From Planctomycetota bacterium (GTDB lineage Bacteria > Planctomycetota > UBA8108 > JACQVS01): DNA of 64,000 bases. A program made the translations under genes and the position numbers. This document shows, piece by piece, positions 1,646-44,353 of the stretch. Each line of letters starts with the position of its first letter. Within the stretch, counting starts at the first letter, position 1. The stretch covers positions 1 through 64,000 of the forward strand of contig JANQLS010000090.1 in the NCBI GenBank assembly GCA_028280485.1, given 5' to 3'. The notes under the pieces were generated by a model. The model did not search any database. It saw only the letters and a program-made list of their open reading frames with translations, and was not told the DNA's origin.

Positions 1646-3226
1646 ATGAAGTTCCCCATGTGTCGATTACCCGGTGCGTCTGTCACCCGTGTAAAACTTA
1701 TTCTTCAATATTATAGTGCATTCAAATTGAAAGGATCAACGTTGAAGCTAGTCCTCCCTAATCTGGTTCACTTTCGAACCTTATTAACCTTAGTCTTAAT
1801 TTTCGGAAGCCTTGTAGTTGATTCTCACACGCCTTGCATGGCGATTGAATCCAAGATAAAAGTGCTCCTCATCGAAGATGCCACTTCTGATGTTTCAAAG
1901 AAGTTAAGCCTTGAGAAGATGATGAAGTCTTCGTCACGTATGGAACCACGAAAGGTTTCATGGGACCAATTGACTCAAGAAGATTTGGCGTGGGCTGGTT
2001 GTCTTCTGCTGGGAGGAATTAAAAATAAGGAACCTCATTCAAAATTGAATTCTGTTATTCAAGCCGTGGGAAATGGGACGGGACTCGTCTGTTCTCAAGA
2101 GGCCCTCCGCTCTTGGCCAAGTTCAAAAGAATTCTCCCAACTCATCCATCGTAAAAACATTGTCACTGTTGAAAAAGATAATACCATTCCTTTGGCGATA
2201 GCAACGTTAAATCAAAGGCAAGATCTTACTCAGAGTGTCCCGCATTTTATTCATGAGGGATACAAATCAAAGGTCGTTCCAGTTTTAAGAACACTATCGA
2301 TATTAAAGTCTGCACCCTTGAATGCTGAAGTCAAAGATCATTCCTCCTTACCCGCTAGAATGTGGCTCGGGATTTTTAACAATGGAAGAATTTGTGTGAG
2401 TGATCTGTCAACTCATACCGGCCCTTCAAAAGATTTAGTTCAAACCTTACTTCTTCGCGGGATCGAGTGGTCCGCCTCCGGGAATGCATTTCGATCTCGA
2501 TCACTCATCACAACAAAGGTGAAGGGCAAATTTGTATTAGCTGCAGATAAGCTTGGCAGCAAAGACACGGGTTTGGTTAAGGGATTAAAGCCAATGAAAG
2601 GCTTTTATAGAGGACGTGAAGTCTCTCAAACGATGAGTTTTCACGGTGCCAGTTGGTTGACAAGGTCTGAGCGTGAAATTGAGGAAGAGCCTGAAAAGGT
2701 TTTAGATGCTATCAAAATTAAACCTGGTGAGTCGCTTTGTGACTTGGGAGCAGGGAATGGCTACTTCACATTAAGAATGGCAAAGCGAGTCGGAGCTGAG
2801 GGAAAGGTTTTTGCAGTCGACATTCAAAAAGAAATGTTAGATCTCCTTAAAAAGCGTCAAGAAGAGGCCGGTATCAAAAACATCGTTCCTATCCTCTCGA
2901 CTTTTAAAGATTCTAAATTACCTCCCAACTCAGTGGATCTCGTTTTGTTTGTCGATGTCTACCATGAACTCTCTCACCCTCAAGAAGTGATGAGTTCGGT
3001 TCATAAAGCGATGAAGAAAAATGGAAGGGTGGTGTTAGTGGAATATCGTGGGGAAGATCCTCTCGTGATGATCAAACCTCGGCATCGAATGTTAGAACGT
3101 CAAGCGATTGCAGAACTCCAAGCCCAAGGATTTAAATGGATTAAAACTCACAATTTTTTAAAGAGTCAGCACATCATTGAATTTCGAGTAGAGAAGAAAA
3201 CAGAATCGAAAGAGAAGAAAAAATAA
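1646..3226 (+). CDS. ThuA-like domain fused to SAM-dependent methyltransferase
   Basis: 526 aa; C-term LCDLGAGNGYFTLRMAKRVG..VFAVDIQKEML is a class I methyltransferase motif I region; N-terminal ~300 aa resembles ThuA-like fold (LLLGG, ARMWLGIFNNGRICVSDLSTH...LLRGIEWSA). Confidence 0.7.
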   Translation: MKFPMCRLPGASVTRVKLILQYYSAFKLKGSTLKLVLPNLVHFRTLLTLVLIFGSLVVDSHTPCMAIESKIKVLLIEDATSDVSKKLSLEKMMKSSSRMEPRKVSWDQLTQEDLAWAGCLLLGGIKNKEPHSKLNSVIQAVGNGTGLVCSQEALRSWPSSKEFSQLIHRKNIVTVEKDNTIPLAIATLNQRQDLTQSVPHFIHEGYKSKVVPVLRTLSILKSAPLNAEVKDHSSLPARMWLGIFNNGRICVSDLSTHTGPSKDLVQTLLLRGIEWSASGNAFRSRSLITTKVKGKFVLAADKLGSKDTGLVKGLKPMKGFYRGREVSQTMSFHGASWLTRSEREIEEEPEKVLDAIKIKPGESLCDLGAGNGYFTLRMAKRVGAEGKVFAVDIQKEMLDLLKKRQEEAGIKNIVPILSTFKDSKLPPNSVDLVLFVDVYHELSHPQEVMSSVHKAMKKNGRVVLVEYRGEDPLVMIKPRHRMLERQAIAELQAQGFKWIKTHNFLKSQHIIEFRVEKKTESKEKKK

Positions 3227-3270
3227 GTTGATGTGTTCCTGTAGAATAGCAGGAACGAATTCATTCTATT

Positions 3271-4365
3271 CTACCTTTGATAAATCGATACGTACTGATA
3301 GGGGAGTTGAAGGATGGTCAACGCGAGGGAAGTACCATACGTAGTCCCTACGTGATCTCCCATCCAAGCGCCATCGCCTTGTTGACGTGAAAGTAACGTA
3401 TCCGATATTTCTTTAAAATAATTCGACCAGCCCGAGCCGCCTTGTTGGTATTTAGCCTGCGCATAGTAGAGGTGTGCGTAGAAATAATGACCCGATTGAG
3501 TTTGGTAAACCGATAGATTTTGATCGCAAAACCTCATACTCCGAGCCGCAAGAGGGCTATCATACTTTCCGGCATTATATAAGGTCGCAACGGCGGCAGC
3601 TGTGATCGCAGGTCGAGGTCCCCAATTACTTTGCAAGCTATAATTGATGCTCCCATCGGGACGAGAAGTACGTTCAATGTATTGAATGGCCCGCTTGATG
3701 GTGGAAGGAGGAACGTGAACTCCCGCATTCCGGCAAGCCCGTAATGCTTGAATTTGAGTTACAGTAACTGAGCCTTCATCGGCATCTTGATTGGGTGAAT
3801 AGAGCCAACCCCCGGCTCGACTCTGACTTCGCGAGGTTAATCGGATAGCCTTGTGAAGGGCATCGCGAATTTTAAATTGTCGGCGATGACTTTCTTCGTT
3901 TCCGTAAACTTCAGCTAAAAACATGGTGGCAAAACCATGACCGTGCATACAGTTGCCAGATTCGGCTGGAGTGGCAATCAAACCCGAAGACTGGCTGTTG
4001 TTCAGTAGAAAGTCGGTAGCTTTTCTTATGTTCGTCGCGTACGGACCTCGAGTAGAGGTGCTTCCCGACCCGAGAAAGGCCATCCCGGCCAATGCCGTCA
4101 TGGCAGTTGGGTACCGTCCATAGCCACCGTTATTATTCCATGAGCCATCTCCATTTTGAGTTCGAGCCAGAAATCGAAGCCCTCGATGGATAGATTTTTC
4201 AACTTGGAAGCTCACCCCTTTGGGGCGGCTTCTACTTGAAGACTGTGCGAATACCAAATTCCCCTCCAGTGAATTCAATGCAGACCAAGTGAGTCCCAAT
4301 TGAATGCAGTCAGTGAGAAATCGTCTACGGTTCGACTTTGAAGTTCTGTCCATCTTCTGGCTCAT
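3271..4365 (-). CDS. Tat-exported prenyltransferase/squalene-oxidase-repeat (alpha/alpha toroid) protein
   Basis: 364 aa; repeated QNGDGSWNNNGGYGRYPTAMTALAGMAFL / QSRAGGWLYSP / RPDGSINYSL / QQGDGAWMGDHVGTTYGTSLALTIL motifs; twin-Arg RRRFLTD. Confidence 0.75.
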   Translation of the reverse strand: MSQKMDRTSKSNRRRFLTDCIQLGLTWSALNSLEGNLVFAQSSSRSRPKGVSFQVEKSIHRGLRFLARTQNGDGSWNNNGGYGRYPTAMTALAGMAFLGSGSTSTRGPYATNIRKATDFLLNNSQSSGLIATPAESGNCMHGHGFATMFLAEVYGNEESHRRQFKIRDALHKAIRLTSRSQSRAGGWLYSPNQDADEGSVTVTQIQALRACRNAGVHVPPSTIKRAIQYIERTSRPDGSINYSLQSNWGPRPAITAAAVATLYNAGKYDSPLAARSMRFCDQNLSVYQTQSGHYFYAHLYYAQAKYQQGGSGWSNYFKEISDTLLSRQQGDGAWMGDHVGTTYGTSLALTILQLPYQYVSIYQR

Positions 4366-38399: not shown

Positions 38400-38594
38400 T
38401 GGAGTGCCCGATTTCGTTCAGCTGTTAATACGGTTAATAGGCCCAGTTTTAAAACATGGTAACGGAGGGTGTTTTATTCTTCAAAGTACTAAATTGAAGT
38501 CTGTGATGATGGGAAAATAGCTCAAATTTGATCATATAAAAAAATATAAATATATAGAAATAATTATACTTAATTAGGATTTTTAACCTCAATT

Positions 38595-38633
38595 CCCTTA
38601 CCAGGTAGCGGGAGAAACGCTACCTGGTAAGGG
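38595..38633. repeat. Paired TACC-W-GGTA palindromes forming a perfect 16-bp hairpin
   Basis: CCCTTACCAGGTAGCG (38595-38610) - ggagaaa - CGCTACCTGGTAAGGG (38618-38633). Confidence 0.95.
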
Positions 38634-38702
38634 GGGCTTAATTTTTTAAGATATTAATTAATAATGTTTTATGATTTATCCTGTCCGAATCTGAATCAAA
38701 AG

Positions 38703-38788: not shown

Positions 38789-40363
38789 ATGGCATATAAA
38801 GACTTATTCAATACTTTAGTTTCAAAACTTCCTAAGACCGACACCGCCAACGAGGCTGGGGGCCAAGCTTACCGCTTAGCTCCAAAACACGCTCTGGCGC
38901 AGTACGCAGTGACCGGTTGTATGAACTCAACCTTCTACGCATCGGCTCAATTGCAATTAGATCGAGTCTTGGCATTGTGTAACGAAATCGAACCCGAGTT
39001 CATCGCGAAGGTGGCGCTCTACGCTCGAAATCGTGGGTACATGAAAGACTTGCCCGCGTTGCTGGTCGCATACTTGGCTTCAAAGCAACCTGGCCTTATG
39101 GCTGAGGTTTTCGATCGAGTGATCGACAACCCCAAAATGCTTCGAAACTTCGTTCAAATTGTTCGAAGTGGAGTCACTGGGCGTCGAAGTTTGGGGTCGC
39201 TGCCCAAGCGAATGATTCTTCAATGGTTGGAGAAGCGTTCTGACGAGCAACTCTTTATTGGCTCAGTAGGAAACACTCCTTCTTTGGCGGACATCATCAA
39301 GATGGTTCACCCCAAGCCAAAAACCAAGTCTCGTGAAGCATTGTTCGGATACCTCTTAGGTCGGAGCTACGACGCTGAGGCTCTTCCTCAAGTGGTTCGA
39401 GATTTTGAGGCTTACAAGAATGCTGAAGATCGAAGAATGCTTGAGACTCCCGATGTCCCTTTCCAATTCTTAACCAGCTTAGATCTGGCGGATTGGGAAT
39501 GGCGTCAAATCGCTCGCTACGCTCCTTGGCAGATGACTCGAATGAACTTAAACGCGTTTGCTTCGCACAATGTGTTTAAGGACCTTGAGATCACCAAGTT
39601 GGTGGCTGATCGATTGCGCGATTCTGAAAAGGTTCGTCGAGCCAAAGTGTTCCCTTACCAACTTTTGGTCGCAAGTCAAAGCGCGCGTTCGGATGTTCCT
39701 TATGCGATTCGTTCAGCATTGGAAGATGCGTTGGAGGTCGCCTTGGAGAATGTTCCTGAGATCAAAGGAAAGGTTTATGTTTTCCTCGATATCTCTGGAT
39801 CGATGCATTCGCCCGTTACTGGGTATCGCCGTGGATCGACAACTGCTGTTCGTTGTATTGACGTTGCCTCATTATTGGCTTCGGCACTCGTAAAGAAAAA
39901 TCCTCAAACGGAGGTCATCCCTTTCGAGTCTCGTGCTTACGAGTTCAAGTTGGATGTGACCGAACGGGTGCTCGTCAACGCTCAACGCTTAGCGAGCTTG
40001 CCTTGTGGCGGAACCAACTGTTCAGCTCCGTTGGCGCTTCTTAACCGAAGAAAAGATCAGGGTGACTTAGTGATCTACGTCTCCGATAACGAGTCTTGGA
40101 TCGATTCTCCTTACTACGGTCACTTCGGTGGAAAGGCGACTCGAACTCTTCAAGAGTGGAGTTTGTTCAAGCGTCGAAGCCCTGAGGCAAAAATGATCTG
40201 TATCGACATTCAACCCTACGCCAACACTCAAGCTAAGGAACGAGAAGACATCATCAACGTCGGTGGCTTCTCGGATCAAGTGTTTAACTTGATCGCCGAA
40301 GTGGCGAGTGGAAACGCAACTGAGAATCATTGGGTGAACCTTATTGATGCCCAAAGGCTCTGA
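38789..40363 (+). CDS. rsr: Ro60/TROVE-domain RNA-binding protein with C-terminal VWA (MIDAS) domain
   Basis: 524 aa; HEAT-like TROVE region (VALYARNRGYMKDLPALLVAYLA, RNFVQIVRSGVTGRRSLG..PKRMILQWL), VWA DISGSMHSPVTG. Confidence 0.93.
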   Translation: MAYKDLFNTLVSKLPKTDTANEAGGQAYRLAPKHALAQYAVTGCMNSTFYASAQLQLDRVLALCNEIEPEFIAKVALYARNRGYMKDLPALLVAYLASKQPGLMAEVFDRVIDNPKMLRNFVQIVRSGVTGRRSLGSLPKRMILQWLEKRSDEQLFIGSVGNTPSLADIIKMVHPKPKTKSREALFGYLLGRSYDAEALPQVVRDFEAYKNAEDRRMLETPDVPFQFLTSLDLADWEWRQIARYAPWQMTRMNLNAFASHNVFKDLEITKLVADRLRDSEKVRRAKVFPYQLLVASQSARSDVPYAIRSALEDALEVALENVPEIKGKVYVFLDISGSMHSPVTGYRRGSTTAVRCIDVASLLASALVKKNPQTEVIPFESRAYEFKLDVTERVLVNAQRLASLPCGGTNCSAPLALLNRRKDQGDLVIYVSDNESWIDSPYYGHFGGKATRTLQEWSLFKRRSPEAKMICIDIQPYANTQAKEREDIINVGGFSDQVFNLIAEVASGNATENHWVNLIDAQRL

Positions 40364-40833: not shown

Positions 40834-40919
40834 GTTGATGATCGAGTCGAATGCCCTAGGGACTACATTGAAATGAAAAGCCAAACGTCTCTAGACCGTT
40901 TGTCGACTCGATCTTCAAC
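40834..40919 (+). ncRNA. Y-RNA-like ncRNA, copy 1 (short, no tRNA-like module)
   Basis: Lower stem GTTGAtGATCGAGTCGA (40834-40850)/TCGACTCGATCtTCAAC (40903-40919); AUGCC internal loop; upper stem CTAGGGAC (40856)/GTCTCTAG (40887). Confidence 0.75.
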
Positions 40920-40980
40920 TTTCCCAGATCACATTGGGTGGTTGAAGAAAAAGTGGGTACTTGGGGCAACGCAAAGAATT

Positions 40981-41123
40981 GTGACGAATGCTGATGGAAC
41001 TACATGGATATTGACCCGTAGGTTGTGAGTTCGAGTCTCACCAGCTGCACCATAGGTGGCTGTAGCTCAAAGGTAGAGCAACGTAATGTAATTGTTTCAT
41101 TTAACCCTTGTCGTCACGTTTTT
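40981..41123 (+). ncRNA. Y-RNA-like ncRNA, copy 2, with permuted tRNA-like module
   Basis: Lower stem GTGACGA (40981)/TCGTCAC (41111) then GTTTTT; upper stem GATGGAAC (40993)/GTTTCATT (41094) and TACAT/ATGTA; T-arm GTGAG-TTCGAGT-CTCAC (41025-41041), acceptor CAGCTGC (41042)/GTGGCTG (41056), D-arm GCTC-AAAGGTA-GAGC (41065-41079). Confidence 0.88.
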
Positions 41124-41137
41124 ATATTCGTAATGAA

Positions 41138-41461
41138 TCATCCCCACATTGAAGGAAACAACAACCAGAAATGGATTAGGAAGTGACCCCAGAGAACCGC
41201 ACCAGCGCTCAGGCTTTTCGATTTAAATAATGCAATAAAGCCAAAGATGATTCCCACAGTTGCATCGAGCAAGATAAAGGAAAAGCCAATGAGGGCGCCT
41301 AAATAAGCGATAGGTGTAGGAAATATTCCGAGGAGAATTAATCCAAATCCAATCTGGGTAATAAGGCTTAAAATTAATGCGATGGCTGAGATCCAAAAGC
41401 AAACTCTCCCTTTCTTAGGATCTTTGTGGTGTGTCAGGGTTTGAAATATCGGATCAGCCAT
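41138..41461 (-). CDS. Small multi-TM membrane protein, family member 1
   Basis: 107 aa; CFWISAIALIL...SKSLSAGAVLWGHFLIHFW; shares layout with ten further ORFs in 41.8-49.7 kb. Confidence 0.7.
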   Translation of the reverse strand: MADPIFQTLTHHKDPKKGRVCFWISAIALILSLITQIGFGLILLGIFPTPIAYLGALIGFSFILLDATVGIIFGFIALFKSKSLSAGAVLWGHFLIHFWLLFPSMWG

Positions 41462-41498
41462 GATCTTAAGAATGAATTATTTATGTTATTCAATGGTA

Positions 41499-41577
41499 GA
41501 TTGAAACGAATGCCTTAGGGACTACATGCCCTCGACTTCTAATCGAACTGTCTCTAAACTTCCTTGTCGTTTCGATC
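41499..41577 (+). ncRNA. Y-RNA-like ncRNA, copy 3 (short)
   Basis: Lower stem GATTGAAACGA (41499)/TCGTTTCGATC (41567); AUGCC loop; upper stem TTAGGGAC (41515)/GTCTCTAA (41550). Confidence 0.75.
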
Positions 41578-41608
41578 TGCCGTGATATTTCTTAGTTTTC
41601 GTTTCGGT

Positions 41609-41732
41609 ACTCGCGAATGCCAGTGGGAATACATGGTAGAGGCGGATTTCTCCGCCGGGGTTCGAGGCCCCAACTCACATTGGAAAAACTCTGATTGAGA
41701 AAAATCTCACTACCCTTTGTCGCGAGTTTTTT
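41609..41732 (+). ncRNA. Y-RNA-like ncRNA, copy 4 (long, with T-arm-like hairpin)
   Basis: Lower stem ACTCGCGA (41609)/TCGCGAGT (41720) then TTTTTT; upper stem AGTGGGA (41622)/TCTCACT (41705); hairpin GGCGGA-TTTC-TCCGCC and T-arm-like GGGG-TTCGAGG-CCCC (41657-41671). Confidence 0.8.
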
Positions 41733-41843
41733 AGGGCTGATGAAAACCCTAAATTCATAACCGTTTTTAAGTCAGTTATTTCACGATAAATTAGAAAATT
41801 CTGCTGGGATTTTTGCTCAAGTTTCCTGTTCTAATATTTTAAC

Positions 41844-42233
41844 TTAACGGTAAACCCACCACTCAATAAGTAGAAATAGAAGTGCAATAAGAGAAGCCCA
41901 GATCCACCAAAATTGAATAGCAACTTGGGCGATACAGAGATACAGCATCGATTTTTTTCGTGTTCGCATATGACAAATCATCCCCGATGATAATCCAATC
42001 GCTGCGATTATCATGGCGAGGATTATTCCAATTGCATAGCCGTCTTTTGGATGATAGCGAGGGTCTTCAATTTGAACGTTTAATATTGCCAAAAAAATAA
42101 TAGTTCCATGAGTAAATATTCCGAAAGCTAACGAGGCAATGCTAACCCAAAAAGGAATCGTTATATTTCTGGGAATGCGGTGATCTGTTTCAATCGGTGG
42201 GATTGAATTATAGTCTTCTGGTGGTTCCGTCAT
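41844..42233 (-). CDS. Small multi-TM membrane protein, family member 2
   Basis: 129 aa; IPFWVSIASLAFGIFTHG. Confidence 0.7.
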   Translation of the reverse strand: MTEPPEDYNSIPPIETDHRIPRNITIPFWVSIASLAFGIFTHGTIIFLAILNVQIEDPRYHPKDGYAIGIILAMIIAAIGLSSGMICHMRTRKKSMLYLCIAQVAIQFWWIWASLIALLFLLIEWWVYR

Positions 42234-42274
42234 TAACCGAAAAAATTCACTCGCTGTTTGCCACTTAATTCATT

Positions 42275-42628
42275 TTATAAGTTCCCCATAGCGTAAAGAA
42301 TCGATAATGGGAATCCAACAACAAATAGATTTCCAAACCAAATTAGGAAGCCTTTTAAATCGCCTGCTCTAACCCAATAGATCGTGCTGGATATAAAGCC
42401 GACCAAGGTGATTACTGAGATGATCATCAATCCATAAACGTAAGCTGCTATGGCATCCCAGCCCTTAATAATTCCAGTGGAAATAGTGACTACCAACAAA
42501 ATTTCCAAGAATAGATTCAGGCCGATGGCAACGATGGTAATCCAAAACGATTTTGGGGCGTGGAAGGACTCTTTCTTTGGTAGTTCATTGATGATCGGAG
42601 TGGGAGAGTTGTAGTCGCTGGTGTTCAT
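42275..42628 (-). CDS. Small multi-TM membrane protein, family member 3
   Basis: 117 aa; KSFWITIVAIGLNL. Confidence 0.7.
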   Translation of the reverse strand: MNTSDYNSPTPIINELPKKESFHAPKSFWITIVAIGLNLFLEILLVVTISTGIIKGWDAIAAYVYGLMIISVITLVGFISSTIYWVRAGDLKGFLIWFGNLFVVGFPLSILYAMGNL

Positions 42629-42640
42629 GGTCTACTACTT

Positions 42641-43015
42641 TCAAATAGAACTCAGGCCAAGAGAGACGATCGTGACGAAAGCAGGCACGACCATACTTAA
42701 GATAAATACAAAGCCACTGGTGAGAGAGCGCGATTTTATTAAGAAAATAAAACTTGTGATGAAGCCTATGATTGCTGAGCCCAGGGCTGCAAAGAGGAAA
42801 AAGGGAAGCCCAAAAGTGCTCACTACTAATAAGACCATTGAGCTTTGACTGAATATCATTGCGACCAATAGGAAGGCCAGGATCAGAAAGTTCAAGAAGA
42901 TCGCCCAAAGGGATTGAGCTAAGTACTTTCCGTACTTTGAATCTGACTTCGGGATGCATCCGCTGAGAATTTCAGTGATTGAAAGACGATCTTGATTCTT
43001 CATTGATAATCTCAA
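42641..43015 (-). CDS. Small multi-TM membrane protein, family member 4
   Basis: 124 aa; SLWAIFLNFLIL...KSRSLTSGFVFILSMVVPAFV. Overlapping frame 42585..42959 considered less likely. Confidence 0.65.
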   Translation of the reverse strand: MRLSMKNQDRLSITEILSGCIPKSDSKYGKYLAQSLWAIFLNFLILAFLLVAMIFSQSSMVLLVVSTFGLPFFLFAALGSAIIGFITSFIFLIKSRSLTSGFVFILSMVVPAFVTIVSLGLSSI

Positions 43016-43063
43016 TTCTTTTAAACTTAAAATTGCAGTTAATGTCGAGAGTTCTACGCATCT

Positions 43064-43489
43064 TTAAAAATTCTGTATGATAAACGGAATTGCGGGGGCG
43101 AGGAAATTTAGAGCGAATACTGCGTAGCCCAAGGCGGACTCACGCAGGGCTTGAAACATTGCACTGGCGAGAAATCCCAAACCTGTAATTGCGGCCAAAG
43201 GTAAGTACATACGAAAATAATTGATTAATACCTCAACTGATTGAAATAGATTTGCATTCTTCCAATCAGAGATGAAGTTATGTGATAAAGAGCTTGAGAA
43301 AACAAAGCTCTCAACACAGAAGGCGATTGCAATAAAAAGATAGATGCCGGCGAAGAAGTCAGTTCTAAGATTTGTTTTCCTCTCACTGCTAAGTGAATCG
43401 GATAAGAGCTTGCTCCTTTTTAAGCGTAGTTGTTCTCTTTGATTTGCTAAGGCTGAGATTGCTTTCATGTTTTGCATTTGAGACTCCAT
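43064..43489 (-). CDS. Small multi-TM membrane protein, family member 5
   Basis: 141 aa; ESALGYAVFALNFLAPAIPFI. Confidence 0.7.
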   Translation of the reverse strand: MESQMQNMKAISALANQREQLRLKRSKLLSDSLSSERKTNLRTDFFAGIYLFIAIAFCVESFVFSSSLSHNFISDWKNANLFQSVEVLINYFRMYLPLAAITGLGFLASAMFQALRESALGYAVFALNFLAPAIPFIIQNF

Positions 43490-43510
43490 TCATTCGAAAA
43501 TCTTGAGCGA

Positions 43511-43924
43511 TCAGAAATACTTGATGGCGACGAAGGGAAGAAAAGGCGCGATTGTATTCAAGGTGAGAGCGATTCCTCCCAGCAATGATCCCTTTCTGGC
43601 TAAGGTGAACGCGCTAATGACGACGCCGATTCCAGTCAATAGCCCCACTCCAATCAAGCCAATGCCGCCCCAGATCATGAGCGCAAGGTAACCGTAGCTA
43701 GAAGTAGCTTCCCACTCGTCCAAGAATTTCATAAGTAAAAAACTGGTACAAGCCAAGTTGAAAAAGAAGTAGAGCGTTGCTGGAGTCAAAAATGCGATAT
43801 CGGCGATTTTGGACTCTTTAGGCTCTTTGATATTCCTTGGAATAATGCTGTGCTCTGCTAATTCATTCATGGTTTGTTCTTTTTTTTCTGAGTTGAGTTT
43901 TTTTATTAAATCGAAGAGCTTCAT
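43511..43924 (-). CDS. Small multi-TM membrane protein, family member 6
   Basis: 137 aa; KGSLLGGIALTLNTIAPFLPFV. Confidence 0.7.
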   Translation of the reverse strand: MKLFDLIKKLNSEKKEQTMNELAEHSIIPRNIKEPKESKIADIAFLTPATLYFFFNLACTSFLLMKFLDEWEATSSYGYLALMIWGGIGLIGVGLLTGIGVVISAFTLARKGSLLGGIALTLNTIAPFLPFVAIKYF

Positions 43925-43933
43925 TTTTTTACC

Positions 43934-44353
43934 TCAGGCGAATTGGAGGTAGAGGGGAATCGCGGGAGTGGCTATGTTAAAGATCACACCGAGGATCCCC
44001 TTAAAGGTGCCTGAGCCTGCGCTTTCCCTAGTCGCCGTTATCATTCCCCAGCACATAATTCCGACAATCGGAATGAGTAAGAAGGCGTGATAGAGCATTA
44101 CCCAAAGTATTTCGATTCCCCATGCAGCGTCTGCTCTCGCGTTGAAGTTTAGAATCAACAACCAGCTGAAAACCATATTCATCCCGCCGATCATCATGCC
44201 GGGAATCATTGCGCTGAGGGCAGCAGCTTCAGCTTCTTGCTTAGCTCCGTTTAAGTATTCAGTTCTTTCGTTATTAGCGATTTTGTTCATGACGACTCTC
44301 CATTCATTCAAGGTTTTTAGGACAGCGATCTCTAAAAGCAAGGTAGGTGCCAA
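43934..44353 (-). CDS. Small multi-TM membrane protein, family member 7
   Basis: 139 aa; SGTFKGILGVIFNIATPAIPLYLQ. Confidence 0.7.
   Translation of the reverse strand: MAPTLLLEIAVLKTLNEWRVVMNKIANNERTEYLNGAKQEAEAAALSAMIPGMMIGGMNMVFSWLLILNFNARADAAWGIEILWVMLYHAFLLIPIVGIMCWGMITATRESAGSGTFKGILGVIFNIATPAIPLYLQFA

Follow-up and report, generated by a model that had tools for sequence, protein, structure and literature searches.

Four predicted Y RNA genes of three architectures beside a Ro60 gene in a Planctomycetota genome

Bacterial Y RNAs encoded beside Ro60 are already known. The Salmonella rsr-yrlBA-rtcBA locus carries two of them next to the Ro60 gene (PMC7790460). Ro60 (Rsr) binds the base of the Y RNA; in Deinococcus, the RNA serves as a tether between Ro60 and PNPase and as a gate for the entry of substrates; and YrlA is modified by tRNA enzymes (PMC7790460, PMC4726728, PMC8394870). 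Here, we describe four elements, Y1–Y4, in a 64,000-nucleotide stretch of a Planctomycetota genome (assembly GCA_028280485.1, contig JANQLS010000090.1, positions 1–64,000; hereafter “the window”). All four are on the plus strand, 0.5–1.4 kb downstream of a gene for Ro60. They are very probably genes for bacterial Y RNAs that partner the adjacent Ro60, with several RNAs sharing one protein, and as such are new members of an established RNA type. A 2014 abstract by Chen in the journal RNA is said to count over 250 species of bacteria and phages in which likely Y RNAs lie close to Ro60, with at least one tRNA-like RNA in each. This would imply that sets with members that are not tRNA-like had already been seen.

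The locus shares features with each of the better described systems. Like the D. radiodurans Y RNA/Rsr/PNPase system (RYPER), it has Y RNA genes beside the gene for a Ro60 ortholog, and the genome has a PNPase gene (contig C51). However, over the fold alignment the window Ro60 shares only ~20% identity with Rsr, and the link to PNPase is here one of gene presence. In contrast to the Salmonella locus, rtcB is not beside Ro60 in the window genome. The vertebrate Y RNAs (hY1, hY3, hY4 and hY5) likewise comprise several small RNAs per Ro60, with a binding site in the basal stem and variable loops, but unlike the bacterial set they have no tRNA-like modules.

The four elements are alike in a Ro60-type base and an upper stem, and differ in their apical parts. 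Common to all are an NCGA/UCGN basal stem, the sequence CGAAUGC with AUGC as an internal loop, the upper stem, the sequence UACAU and, on the 3ʹ side, an internal loop whose last letters, UUG, precede UCG (UUGUCG). Y1 (40840..40913) and Y3 (41503..41573) are short Y RNAs (class S) with a plain apical loop in place of a tRNA-like domain. The lower stem of Y1 (40840–40850/40903–40913) is 11 bp long and its upper stem 8 bp, and the lower stem of Y3 (41503–41509/41567–41573) could be lengthened by G-U pairs to 41493/41583. Y2 (40980..41118; lower stem 40981–40987/41112–41118) is a full YrlA-type Y RNA (class F) and is followed by a T-run (GTTTTTAT). Its tRNA-like domain (41025..41078) is permuted, with a tRNA 3ʹ half preceding a 5ʹ half: a T-arm (GUGAG-UUCGAGU-CUCAC), a 7-bp acceptor (CAGCUGC/GUGGCUG; 7/7 pairs including G-U, with ACCA behind the 3ʹ acceptor strand) and a D-arm (GCUC..GAGC). 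The domain is predicted to fold into T-arm, acceptor and D-arm hairpins at -18.4 kcal/mol. Y4 (41609..41727; lower stem 41609–41616/41720–41727), followed by T6, is a T-arm-only Y RNA (class T). Its top consists of an extra hairpin, the T-arm-like GGGGUUCGAGGCCCC and a second hairpin (CUCA..UGAG). Class T lacks a D-arm and usually has such a second hairpin straight after the T-arm; in 42 class-T elements, the helix directly after the T stem averages 4.7 bp, as compared to 3.2 bp in shuffled sequence. In comparisons with hidden Markov models (HMMs) from which window rows had been excluded, Y1 and Y3 fall into class S and Y4 into class T (34.6 bits, E=7e-10 over the full length, versus 9.4 bits with class S). 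Y4 is an apparent half-tRNA mimic; its T-arm is the least certain assignment because the minimum-energy fold pairs through the T-loop.

A preliminary description of the four plus-strand segments had quoted their stems and loops, all of which are present in the sequence where it placed them. It had also proposed a single common design. This holds for the Ro60-type base and the upper stem but not for the apical parts, which follow three architectures; the tRNA-like domain of Y2 and the T-arm-only module of Y4 had been overlooked.

A covariance model, R3, was built from 38 short elements of other genomes, with the window sequence excluded. On both strands of the 64 kb, it matched Y1 (60.3 bits, E=3.5e-15), Y3 (53.5 bits, E=3.2e-13), Y2 (44.6 bits, E=1.2e-10) and Y4 (34.1 bits, E=1.4e-7), with no further match up to E=10. 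As far as sequence can tell, this leave-out result is decisive for the reality of the four elements. The class HMMs are similarly free of window sequences. Models R1 and R2 include them, and hence their scores on the window are not independent. A scan for stem plus motif over both strands of the window gave four matches, all at Y1–Y4. The same scan gave a total of 11 matches in 100 dinucleotide shuffles (0.11 per shuffle, with a maximum of three in one). In 779 kb of oriented Ro60 loci, the opposite strand had no match. Since the scan was anchored on CGAATG, the invariance of this motif among the scanned elements is by construction; RF02553, the Rfam model of YrlA, shows a CGAATG-type consensus independently of the scan. 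Folding energy was dropped as a proof. The z-scores of the minimum free energy (MFE) were -6.2 for Y1 (MFE -28.8) and -3.6 for Y4, but were modest for Y2 (-1.5) and Y3 (-2.1), so that folding energy by itself is not decisive for the latter two.

Conservation of pairing extends well beyond the window. Among 227 unique elements gathered by sequence only from ~90 loci, four contiguous lower-stem pairs are present in 74%, versus 11.6% with shuffled partners, and the upper helix has a mean of 7.1, versus 5.2. Covariation was scored in class alignments of 33–40 sequences, nearly all from other genomes. In class S, double changes occur in 13 of 16 pairs, 93.9% of cells are paired, and the covariation score is 0.634, as compared to 0.184 for shuffled alignments and at most 0.146 for slid controls. 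The class T score is 0.495 (0.174 shuffled); the T-arm helix was used to select this class, but helices 1–3 played no part in the selection. By comparative analysis, the elements covary as paired RNA across at least three phyla. R3 and covariation also point to a Ro60-type base in all four elements, with a basal stem formed from the 5ʹ and 3ʹ ends and a conserved internal loop.

RF02553 matched Y2 over its full length (model positions 1–114; 54.7 bits, E=3.7e-11) and Y4 in part (30.7 bits, E=3e-4), with no match to Y1 or Y3. Y2 has the same base as YrlA, the same order of T-arm, acceptor and D-arm, and the same position beside Ro60. It is the only one of the four with all three parts of the YrlA domain, as Y4 has no D-arm and Y1 and Y3 have no domain. 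The search with the Rfam YrlA model that had been proposed for these segments therefore recovers two of them, both below the gathering score. At 12 related loci with ~50 Y elements, eight of the RF02553 matches listed reach the gathering score, and no S or T element is among them; weaker matches occur in G056, G036, G081, G094 and G100. Thus, the single YrlA model of Rfam misses most such RNAs, and genome annotation undercounts them. RF02553 matches on contig C199 of the window genome proved to be tandem tRNAs and were discarded as YrlA. Tandem tRNAs presumably match the model weakly because YrlA has the topology of the junction between two tandem tRNAs, with the 3ʹ half of the first ahead of the 5ʹ half of the second.

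The window Ro60 has matches in ten of 101 related genomes. R1 matched six of the 101, all of them Ro60-bearing, and 10 of its 11 matches are at the Ro60 locus; the eleventh is marginal (24.3 bits), on a different contig of one of the six. No R1 match was found in the 91 related genomes without a Ro60 match. In the 9.4 Mb of the window genome itself, R2 matched only Y1–Y4, and R1 only Y1 and Y3 (E 0.01). We also took a census of 74 related Ro60 loci, each with at least 1.2 kb of downstream sequence. At least one element is present at 70 of these loci, at least two at 61 and at least four at 22 (range 0–6), mostly on the same strand as Ro60 and no more than 1.3 kb downstream of it; loci without a motif-scan match mostly do have model matches. 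Class S was called at 43 loci, class T at 41, class F at 55 and all three at 20, numbers that are approximate because the calls rest on simple rules. Judged by these predictions, several Y RNAs of differing architecture are the rule beside Ro60 of the present type.

The Ro60 gene (38789..40363, plus strand) encodes a Ro60/Rsr ortholog of 524 amino acids, with a TROVE HEAT-repeat ring and a vWA domain that carries the MIDAS motif DxSxS. In this open reading frame (ORF), Pfam detects vWA_Ro60 (2.3e-12) and TROVE (3.4e-7), and the protein matches D. radiodurans Rsr (2NVO; phmmer, E=1.2e-14). An AlphaFold model (predicted local distance difference test score, pLDDT, 85.8) was compared to known structures with Foldseek, and the first 13 matches are all Ro60, Rsr or phage Ro60 structures (template modelling, TM, scores 0.62–0.74). 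The MIDAS residues D334, S336 and S338 are invariant in 30 aligned Ro60 sequences. A first search of the window genome with the Pfam TROVE model (PF05731) gave no match, even though the protein itself clears the threshold in hmmscan; protein and PF25045 searches took its place.

These data bear on the remaining claims of the preliminary description. Identity as Y RNAs is well supported by RF02553, R3 and covariation, and adjacency to Ro60 by Pfam, Foldseek and the co-occurrence with Ro60 genomes. Taken on their own, the compensatory changes that distinguish the four copies, put forward there as strong evidence, are suggestive; the strong evidence is the covariation within the class alignments, where classes S and T also bear out the expected conservation of paired positions in Ro60-bearing relatives. 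The four-copy set had been taken to be new, but with at least four elements at 22 of the 74 loci such a set is not unusual.

Could some or all of these elements be something other than functional Y RNAs? Copy number varies among loci, the cores of Y1 and Y3 are alike, and an unrelated ORF now divides the cluster, as might be expected if only Y2 were functional and Y1, Y3 and Y4 were decaying relics of a local duplication. Relics would lose pairing, however, and the stems of Y1 and Y3 are fully paired despite their different sequences; moreover, classes S and T covary across phyla, each with its own consensus. We therefore consider decay to be improbable. We regard it as very improbable that the elements are remnants of a tRNA array, i.e. 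pieces of tandem tRNAs turned into structured spacers that have no role with Ro60: a tRNA part is missing from Y1 and Y3, all four elements have the Ro60-type base, and no tRNA gene was found in the 64-kb window. Such an origin would nonetheless fit the YrlA topology, the weak matches of the YrlA model to tandem tRNAs of this genome, and the tRNA arrays that adjoin Ro60 loci in Acidobacteriota (see below). Least probable of all is that Y1–Y4 are dispersed palindromic repeats, akin to repetitive extragenic palindromic (REP) sequences or miniature inverted-repeat transposable elements (MITEs), or tandem terminators, that follow Ro60 by chance. T-runs follow Y2 and Y4, and hence the basal stems could double as transcription terminators. 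However, the genome-wide searches with R1 and R2 and the R3 search of the window refute dispersed repeats unless copies lie in missing sequence, the elements are on one strand only, and neither terminators nor REPs would be expected to have conserved internal loops and tRNA-like modules.

Several observations weigh against Y1–Y4 being Y RNA partners of Ro60. Y2 and Y4 both score below the RF02553 gathering score of 69 bits. Tethering of PNPase has been shown in Deinococcus only (PMC7790460, PMC4726728). The sole RtcB found in this genome is on contig C60, away from Ro60; rtcB is beside Ro60 in six relatives (G024, G025, G033, G039, G086 and G088). The 477 nt between the Ro60 stop and the start of Y1 form a wider gap than in most relatives, and a promoter/terminator scan of the locus was uninformative, with no strong promoter found. 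Expression of Y1–Y4 is therefore a prediction.

Y1 and Y2 are separated from Y3 and Y4 by a small ORF of 107 amino acids (41138..41461, minus strand) that has no Pfam match and probably does not belong with the RNAs. A series of short ORFs of 107–141 amino acids occupies 41138–44353 on the minus strand, one of them within the Y RNA cluster. Five were scanned and have no Pfam match; they look membrane-like by eye, and the series may be a local paralog family. Upstream of Ro60, a long 18-bp hairpin (38593–38635, plus strand), followed by a weak T tail, is a possible terminator of the preceding unit.

Of the 15 Acidobacteriota Ro60 loci for which 4 kb or more of upstream sequence is available, 12 have Ro60 and its Y RNAs directly downstream of a same-strand tRNA array of 8 to ~32 genes within 5 kb (these loci include L050, L058, L059, L068, L055, L052, L094, L036, L021, L032 and L054). 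At L021, the Y RNAs are partly interspersed with the array; at L058, an HNH-endonuclease-like ORF (by eye; 2961–3545, plus strand) lies in a gap of the array upstream of Ro60. No tRNA arrays were found upstream of Ro60 in Planctomycetota, Verrucomicrobiota or Proteobacteria loci. Three array genomes have 61–67 tRNA matches each, of which the array holds about half in L050 and L058 and about a quarter in L094. The others lie elsewhere in the genome, so the array looks like a second, redundant tRNA set. A YrlA-like RNA in genome G057 (C95:21488–21627; L110, 5989–6128, minus strand) is upstream of apparent rtcB and rtcA genes, with an rtcR-like gene adjoining. Protein and vWA_Ro60 searches of this 93% complete genome gave no Ro60 match, and the RNA is possibly a Y RNA without Ro60. 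Ro60 relatives are also encoded in 393 phage records. That of Myxococcus phage Mx1 (OR576727.2, 56915–58561; L116) is 45% identical to the window protein over its full length and adjoins a tRNA and a peptidyl-tRNA hydrolase; no Y RNAs were found near it with R2 or R3.

What might several Y RNAs do for one Ro60? If Y1–Y4 are Y RNA genes, as we favor, they probably act as RNA scaffolds and gates for Ro60; we infer their Ro60 binding, expression and choice of partner by analogy. From the work in Deinococcus and Salmonella, the outer surface of Ro60 would bind the base of each Y RNA, and binding would stabilize the RNA and gate the cavity of the Ro60 ring. The variable top would be an exchangeable module. 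The top of Y2, which appears to mimic a tRNA without an anticodon arm, might attract enzymes that bind tRNA, or PNPase in the manner of the Deinococcus Ro60–Y RNA–PNPase degradation complex. Y4 would offer the T-arm/acceptor half only, and Y1 and Y3 could be gate-only or decoy forms, or could bear a tether that is not tRNA-like. Several RNAs would share a single Ro60 and determine how accessible and stable it is and which partner it has.

More tentatively, we propose that, in Planctomycetota, Verrucomicrobiota, Acidobacteriota and some Proteobacteria, Ro60 permanently has RNAs of three architectures at its disposal, and that each directs the one ring to partners or substrates of its own, with the T-arm-only class as a distinct conserved subfamily outside the YrlA model of Rfam 15. 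This class may be new. We know of no studies of Ro60 ribonucleoproteins in the phyla concerned. With the present analysis, a well-supported Ro60 system of several RNAs is added in further phyla, and the testable question arises of whether one Ro60 ring changes function by swapping RNAs with different tops.
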